This document shows positions 8,973 through 9,357 of a DNA stretch of 64,000 nucleotides, one piece after another. The DNA is from Bifidobacterium lemurum (GTDB lineage: Bacteria > Actinomycetota > Actinomycetes > Actinomycetales > Bifidobacteriaceae), in the NCBI RefSeq assembly GCF_014898175.1, contig NZ_CP062948.1, positions 2,294,001 through 2,358,000 of the forward strand, in the 5' to 3' direction. Below the pieces are notes generated by a model, which did no database searches, was not told the DNA's origin, and worked only from the letters and a program-made list of their open reading frames with translations. The position numbers and the translations under genes were made by a program. Within the stretch, counting starts at the first letter, position 1; each line of letters begins with the position of its first letter.

Positions 8973-9045
8973 TCCTGCGTAGCTCAGTTGGCAGAGCATC
9001 CGACTGTTAATCGGACGGTCGCTGGTTCAAGCCCAGCCGCAGGAG
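8973..9045 (+). tRNA. tRNA-Asn (GTT), copy 2, integration target
   Basis: Identical to copy 1 over all 73 bases; the six bases before each copy are also alike (ATATTC shared). Its 3' half holds the 21-bp repeat that recurs at the right end of the window, so it is the attachment site of the integrated element and was kept intact by integration. Read on the opposite strand, its 3' half forms the end of the left-end XRE gene. Confidence 0.97.
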
Positions 9046-9357
9046 CTTGTTGGGAGCCTCCACTTCGGTGGAGGCTTTTTCTGTATCTGCTCCCATCTGA
9101 TACATCAGCGCATCGTCGAGCAGTTGCTCCGTGCTCGCTTCTAGGAAACGAGAAGCGTTTACTAGGTCAACCACTGACCAGCTTGTCCTTCCGGACATTT
9201 TCTGAGACATGGCAGAGCGGCCTATGCCCATTGCTTCAGCCAATGATGATTGGGAATATCCTCGCGCCGCCAAAAGAAGTCTGACATTAAAGACGATTGT
9301 GGATTCGAGTTTTTTCTCCGAAGCCTTGGTCATTGGCGATGCAAGAACGGTGGTCAT
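9007..9357 (-). CDS. XRE-family regulator reading into tRNA-Asn
   Basis: Small DNA-binding protein of 116 residues with a helix-turn-helix (VRLLLAARGYSQSSLAEAMGIGRSAMSQKMSG). ATG 9357 is chosen because AAAGGA precedes it by six bases; an in-frame TTG at 9390 has none. It is divergent from a second XRE gene. The last eight residues, GLNQRPSD, are read antisense through the tRNA 3' half and the stop falls in the anticodon loop. In the excised circle the same frame would pass through the att core into the right end of the element and gain 32 codons (see the entry at 63882). It is likely the repressor of integration or transfer functions; its target is not known. Confidence 0.85.
   Translation of the reverse strand: MTTVLASPMTKASEKKLESTIVFNVRLLLAARGYSQSSLAEAMGIGRSAMSQKMSGRTSWSVVDLVNASRFLEASTEQLLDDALMYQMGADTEKASTEVEAPNKLLRLGLNQRPSD
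9012..9032 (+). repeat. attL core (21-bp direct repeat)
   Basis: CGGACGGTCGCTGGTTCAAG plus one C inside the tRNA-Asn variable region and T arm. It is identical to the last 21 bases of the window. Crossover could fall anywhere within it. Confidence 0.88.
9056..9080 (+). terminator. Rho-independent terminator after tRNA-Asn
   Basis: Stem GCCTCCAC/GTGGAGGC with a TTCG tetraloop, followed by TTTTT. It ends the tRNA transcript. It lies in the element, so it arrived with the integrated DNA, and it also sits inside the reading frame of the minus-strand XRE gene. Confidence 0.88.

Follow-up and report, generated by a model that had tools for sequence, protein, structure and literature searches.

Integration-dependent immunity is already known in phages, where the choice it governs is between lysis and lysogeny, and for Bifidobacterium prophages at tRNA-Met it has been predicted (PMC6109161). 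Its features, according to one account (PMC9934374), are an attP site within the repressor gene, a stop codon at or near attL that shortens the product, and a 3' remnant of the gene at attR. Such systems are found in the mycobacteriophages BPs, Brujita and Giles, and PMC4557955 describes for BPs an ssrA-like end to the tail, an integrase downstream of the repressor, a divergent cro-like gene, and a short repressor that is active and stable while the long form is degraded. Within the genus considered here, the prophages concerned are Bb423phi2 and 689b-1 of B. breve, for which ssrA-like tails are also predicted (PMC6109161). In ICEKp1, transcription of int is reported to depend on the integration state (PMC13023037). 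PMC8092301 discusses immunity systems under prophages and conjugative genes under plasmids, and a swap of a regulator's C-terminus in conjugative elements was not found in searches of open-access papers, which is weak evidence of absence.

The locus described here lies in the window, the whole 64,000-nucleotide stretch of Bifidobacterium lemurum DNA that was analysed, and what is new is the occurrence of this layout in a conjugative element, together with 23 of 31 related regulators (the best 30 loci plus the G020 locus) that end in antisense tRNA, reconstructed circles, and unbroken natural versions of the protein. The two ends of the element comprise:
9007..9357, minus strand: rep, an XRE regulator in its integrated short form of 116 aa (HTH_31 below cut-off; phrog_4583, transcriptional repressor, E 2.9e-11)
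8973..9046, plus strand: tRNA-Asn(gtt), restored at attL, whose antisense strand gives rep its stop
9012..9046: left copy of the att core, 35 bp
63980..64000: right copy of the att core, with a further 14 bp past the window edge (to 64014)
63882..63979, minus strand: detached rep tail of 32 codons plus stop, contiguous with rep in the circle alone

The integrated rep ends LLRLGLNQRPSD, its stop codon falling within the tRNA-Asn at 8973-9046, which bears out the sequence-only reading of a minus-strand XRE gene that stops inside the tRNA after a single Asp. At attR the frame continues in the rep phase through LNQRPS and then GSQFGFDDDPTGDFEIWEKELTGIMTLPLQNE to a stop codon at 63882-63884, and the tail, which ends LPLQNE, is acidic and of the length and phase originally read. 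Joining rep to attR through the core, as in a reconstructed circle, yields a single frame of 147 aa, matching the uninterrupted protein of about 147 residues that had been anticipated; an attP that breaks the frame had been named as grounds for refutation, and the attP reconstructed for the window leaves it intact. The core had been taken as 21 bp with six shared codons, and the same codons do recur in the same phase, but the identical stretch (9012-9046 = 63980-64014) measures 35 bp, so that 11 codons are shared rather than six. The 2,965,103-base genome contains three copies of a 21-mer of the core, in both tandem copies of tRNA-Asn and at attR; these tandem tRNA-Asn(gtt) genes lie at 8856-8929 and 8973-9046, and the element occupies the second. 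At sequence level, a physical swap of the rep C-terminus upon integration is near certain. The length of the open frame was discarded as evidence for a selected tail, because 55 codons stay open in a second frame, counted from the same core point, against 40 in that of rep. Since the length of the window frame is unremarkable, the case for a frame maintained by more than chance rests on the relatives.

With BPs-type immunity the locus shares attP within the repressor gene, rep at attL, the 3' remnant at attR, a bacterial stop near attL that shortens the integrated form (116 versus 147 aa), and int downstream, with a divergent cro-like gene and divergent promoter-like sites. The first proposal of a BPs-like swap stands as far as the window sequence, the circles of relatives and the unbroken natural proteins are concerned, but not in the carrier, which here is conjugative, nor in the tail, which lacks an AA or ssrA-like end. 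Bb423phi2 and 689b-1 have in common with it the genus, a repressor across attP in a tRNA, and regulators related by sequence, whereas they are 18-kb prophages with predicted ssrA-like tails and this is a 55-kb element at tRNA-Asn with another type of tail.

This 55-kb element is conjugative by its gene content, which includes:
31794..33278, plus strand: SCO6880-family protein (NF042935, 480.7 bits, cut-off 60)
33298..34845, plus strand: VirB4-like ATPase (NF045975, E 1.7e-11, under the equivalog cut-off; without a Pfam match)
36994..38775, plus strand: VirD4/TraG-type coupling protein (TraG-D_C, 80.1 bits, cut-off 22, on 36943-38775; NF045973 below cut-off)
43082..44446, minus strand: relaxase candidate (without a Pfam or NCBIfam match; read from its N-terminus and position; 67% identical in G020)
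45681..46013, minus strand: MobC/NikA-like protein (MobC, 21.6 bits, cut-off 23.2)
47046..49211, minus strand: type IA topoisomerase (Topoisom_bac, 308 bits)
52318..53352, plus strand: CHAP-domain cell-wall hydrolase (family match)

The ICE features present are thus a coupling protein above its cut-off, a secretion ATPase (VirB4-like, below its cut-off), an integrase, and att repeats at a tRNA; a ParA-like protein and an O-like replication initiator are also located between the att sites. In being integrated, in its conjugation genes and in its actinobacterial host the element resembles the T4SS conjugative elements of Actinobacteria (PMC3218068). A phage reading is ruled out by the conjugation genes (VirD4, VirB4-like, SCO6880-family). 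Pfam and NCBIfam scans found no virion or packaging families among the window genes scanned (several frames in the early family scans are not genes under the later gene model), and PHROGs matches for seven window proteins were to regulators, integrase and replication initiators. Further genes of the element include those for an antigen I/II-type surface protein of 1329 aa (20444-24433, plus strand), with matches in G020, G080, G027, G052 and G046, an IS21-type transposase and IstB pair within the element (15935-18186, minus strand), and, at 60052-62766, an AbiEii-family protein, with a small gene ahead of its own, and a Fic-domain protein next to int.

Around rep, and on the far side of the junction in the circle, the following elements were identified:
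9406..9434, minus strand: promoter-like site for rep, TTGTCA-17-TATAAT, 11/12
9428..9456, plus strand: promoter-like site for the cro-like gene, TTGACA-17-TATGTT, 10/12
9482..9712, plus strand: cro-like HTH protein of 76 aa, oriented away from rep (family matches all below cut-off)
62834..63781, minus strand: int, a tyrosine integrase of 315 aa (Phage_integrase, 46.1 bits, cut-off 27.1; phrog_1, E 1.1e-33)
63804..63827, minus strand: terminator-like hairpin and U run, past the tail stop and ahead of int
9055..9076, plus strand: hairpin (perfect 9 bp) and T run within rep codons, 9 nt past tRNA-Asn, where it probably terminates the restored tRNA

The promoter-like sites of rep and the cro-like gene diverge and overlap, and the order in the circle is rep, tail stop, hairpin, int, with int starting 100 nt past the tail stop. 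The hairpin at 9055..9076 was found by a pattern of our own and was not listed by the general hairpin scan; a hairpin with T's in the linker codons, on the tRNA strand just past the tRNA, is present in the window and in 14 of 16 relatives (all except L043 and L047), and because it is overprinted on these codons the end of rep seems to act as a linker while also forming the att core and terminating the tRNA.

Rep is probably a regulator through which a conjugative element senses its own integration, and it is likely that the swap of its C-terminus matters for regulation. The sequence shows that attP lies within rep and that integration into tRNA-Asn removes 32 codons and substitutes one Asp and a stop supplied by the tRNA. 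By analogy with BPs, the short form would be a stable, active and lasting repressor of the rightward operon headed by the cro-like gene, and the tail would render the circle form short-lived or weak, acting either as a C-terminal degron other than the ssrA type or as an interfering end. A new or excised circle would then permit expression and carry rep and int as a single leftward unit; integration would lock repression on while parting int from the rep promoter.

A rather unlikely alternative, though one compatible with the sensor, is that the switch acts on transcription of int, the rep promoter being upstream of int in the circle and severed from it in the chromosome, so that the change of protein end is incidental. 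Int does follow rep in the circle, and the lone promoter-like site near it on its own strand in the scanned stretch scores 9/12 and overlaps the int start, so that int is probably transcribed from further upstream; moreover, ICEKp1 furnishes a precedent for state-dependent int transcription. ICEKp1 shares expression that differs between circle and integrated form at an att junction, but what is switched there is apparently the promoter and not a regulator protein. What speaks against an int switch here is the terminator-like hairpin between tail and int, found in five of ten reconstructed circles (the window and four of the nine relatives tested, namely G020, G003, G103 and G002), weak in a fifth relative (G098-Asn) and absent in the remaining four circles; nor does such a switch explain the conservation of tails discussed below.

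The search for relatives within the genus found matches in 62 of 112 genomes, and the loci considered are the best 30 places plus the G020 locus, 31 in all with the window included. The 23 of these whose stop lies inside an antisense tRNA cover six isotypes (Asn 10, Met 4, Glu 4, Lys 3, Arg 1, Leu 1), the tRNA-Met regulators being L050, L053, L057 and L058, and near the other eight no tRNA lies closer than 600 bases; of these, L048 and L059 at least are at contig ends. Family-wide, matches were obtained in 70 of 189 Bifidobacteriaceae genomes and 9 of 16 genera; four of the five loci examined in other genera stop within a tRNA (three at Arg-CCT and one at Lys-TTT), and none of the four examined genus loci from this search does so, two of them having already been counted among the 31. 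A pattern known to overlook some cases (e.g., G103) found Asn half-sites in 8 of 112 genomes, and Glu half-sites were found in two of 112; the Asn half-site of G041, which reads PSD followed by an immediate stop, was left out of the class. The other open frame across tRNA-Asn is used by regulators P0073, P0074, P0076, P0078, P0080 and L051, which end GLEPATVRLTVGCSAN.

When 16 relatives were compared with 15 window proteins, G020, a contig of Bifidobacterium catenulatum subsp. kashiwanohense JCM 15439, matched 14 of the 15 at 35-81% identity (integrase 59%), and G080, at tRNA-Lys, matched VirD4, VirB4, SCO6880 and the relaxase candidate. Conjugation genes were matched in just these two, several of the other 14 being covered in part, and the conjugation set was not found at this sensitivity in the G003 element, which was covered end to end. 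With the set unmatched in 14 of 16, and G003 covered in full, not all the relatives can be called conjugative. A cro-like gene was matched in 11 of the 16.

Ten attL/attR pairs could be assembled into circles, with the pairing assumed in four because the halves lie on different contigs. Nine read through the core, with tails of 14-57 codons (window 32, G020 48, G003 57, G103 35, G070 40, G098-Asn 14, G002 44, G102 28, G098-Lys 28); the tail of G004 is one codon long, and this pair may be a remnant, since just 7 kb separates rep from the second G004 half-site. Among 87 database clusters, 12 (186 members) extend through the Asn core, and may originate from circles or tandem copies, and 20 (209 members) have the integrated ending; the remainder end in other tRNA peptides or otherwise. 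Specifically, the natural, unbroken P0004 is 73% identical to the joined protein of the window over 87% of its length, and P0031, from B. subtile, has a tail of the G102 type. Retention of the tail frame across relatives, suggested at the outset as a further check, was thus mostly found, the exceptions being G004 and, among the 12 extended clusters, P0039 with a frameshifted tail and P0040 with a different end. Residues 100-147 of the window joined protein found no match as a database query, tail A was matched in three of 112 genomes and tail B in one. P0004 had no match in phage or plasmid collections, and P0037, P0030 and the integrase had no relative among viral contigs, where P0004 gave one weak locus, L065 (40% over residues 16-65), that does not end in a tRNA.

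Whether the tail is selected as protein bears directly on a second alternative, somewhat less probable than the int switch, in which the layout is a by-product: the 3' half of the tRNA serves as attP, rep merely reaches it, the tail is functionless and both proteins behave alike. In keeping with this, the second frame is equally open, tails differ strongly between elements, G004 has lost its tail, and codon constraint is weak in the G020/G015 pair (pS 0.25, pN 0.19, dN/dS 0.75; 9, 7 and 15 differences at the three codon positions), where one antisense frame has a similar pN/pS of 0.79. Other comparisons argue against a by-product, as conservation and hydrophobicity are specific to the regulator frame. 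The window and P0004 tails align better than shuffles (p 0.0012), as do within-family pairs of A and of B and the pair D-E, although in shuffle-tested alignments the window tail resembles neither the A nor the B family, nor the G003 tail. Tails D (G102, tRNA-Lys) and E (G098, tRNA-Asn), compared over 15 codons picked by us, are identical at 24 of 45 DNA positions, with 8, 3 and 10 differences by codon position and a BLOSUM score of 47 in the regulator frame against at most 14 in the other five frames. Hydrophobic peaks pooled over seven tail families, by a measure selected after the tails had been seen, exceed those of dinucleotide shuffles in one of the six frames only, that of the regulator (z 3.47, p 0.001); this test omits G070 (family of G020), G098lys (G102 tail) and G004 (one codon). 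The later-found tail of G027, the same in G039, gave p 0.005 for the regulator frame, the other frames giving 0.075 or more. Tails of the earlier set do not reach significance singly (p 0.08-0.23), and that of the window, acidic and weakly hydrophobic, has the lowest peak (1.60, p 0.14). Regulators stop within six tRNA isotypes and cross tRNA-Asn in two frames, which likewise speaks against a by-product, as does the tail stop of G027, placed 3 nt ahead of the next ATG.

The nature of the tail was considered further. An ssrA-like degron is ruled out for the window, since its tail ends LPLQNE and the host tmRNA tag is AKSNRTEFALAA; an AA ending is absent from all ten circle tails. The control, an 18-kb element of G021 at tRNA-Met and of the kind given predicted ssrA-like tails in PMC6109161, has a detached tail ending ILAA. 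A structural model of P0004 (mean pLDDT 73.8, 25-row alignment) has a confident HTH at approximately residues 1-80, a low-confidence stretch at 84-116 and a low-confidence helix at 116-134, suggesting that the swap alters a probably flexible end and not the DNA-binding domain. That the long form has a role of its own in the circle, as an activator or excision factor and not as a disabled repressor, is improbable: there are several tail types, including the acidic window/P0004 type with its predicted weak helix, but the seven tail families have no common motif except hydrophobic stretches, and the model gains no domain.

The integration sensor is favoured by the intact frame and cores, the divergent promoter-like sites, the cro-like partner and int 100 nt past the tail, and also by the tRNA-ended relatives, read-through circles, extended clusters, the P0004-like tail of the window, frame-specific conservation and hydrophobicity, and a model with a folded HTH and a low-confidence end. 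It is weakened by the unremarkable frame length, the dN/dS of 0.75, the choice of hydrophobicity measure and of the 15 codons with the tails in view, the low peak of the window tail, the four assumed pairings, G004, P0039, P0040, the regulators that do not end in tRNA, and the hairpin between tail and int. Somewhat short of an even prospect is the broader proposal that mobile elements of Bifidobacteriaceae, some of them conjugative, share such a sensor, in which the repressor end lies across the target tRNA, insertion at several tRNAs would remove a mostly hydrophobic, non-ssrA degron and lock repression, and one stretch would serve as att core, protein end and linker terminator; it is held less probable because conjugation genes were matched in so few relatives. 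If true, sensing the integration state through a protein end would be a more general solution for mobile DNA, given the conjugative carrier, the relatives at six tRNA isotypes and the several unrelated tail types. For annotation, an end such as LNQRPSD or NPRLKR can mark a regulator as the integrated half of a longer gene. In P0010-P0025 the regulator cores are near-identical and the N- and C-terminal ends vary, P0025 (198 members) running into Fic-like sequence.
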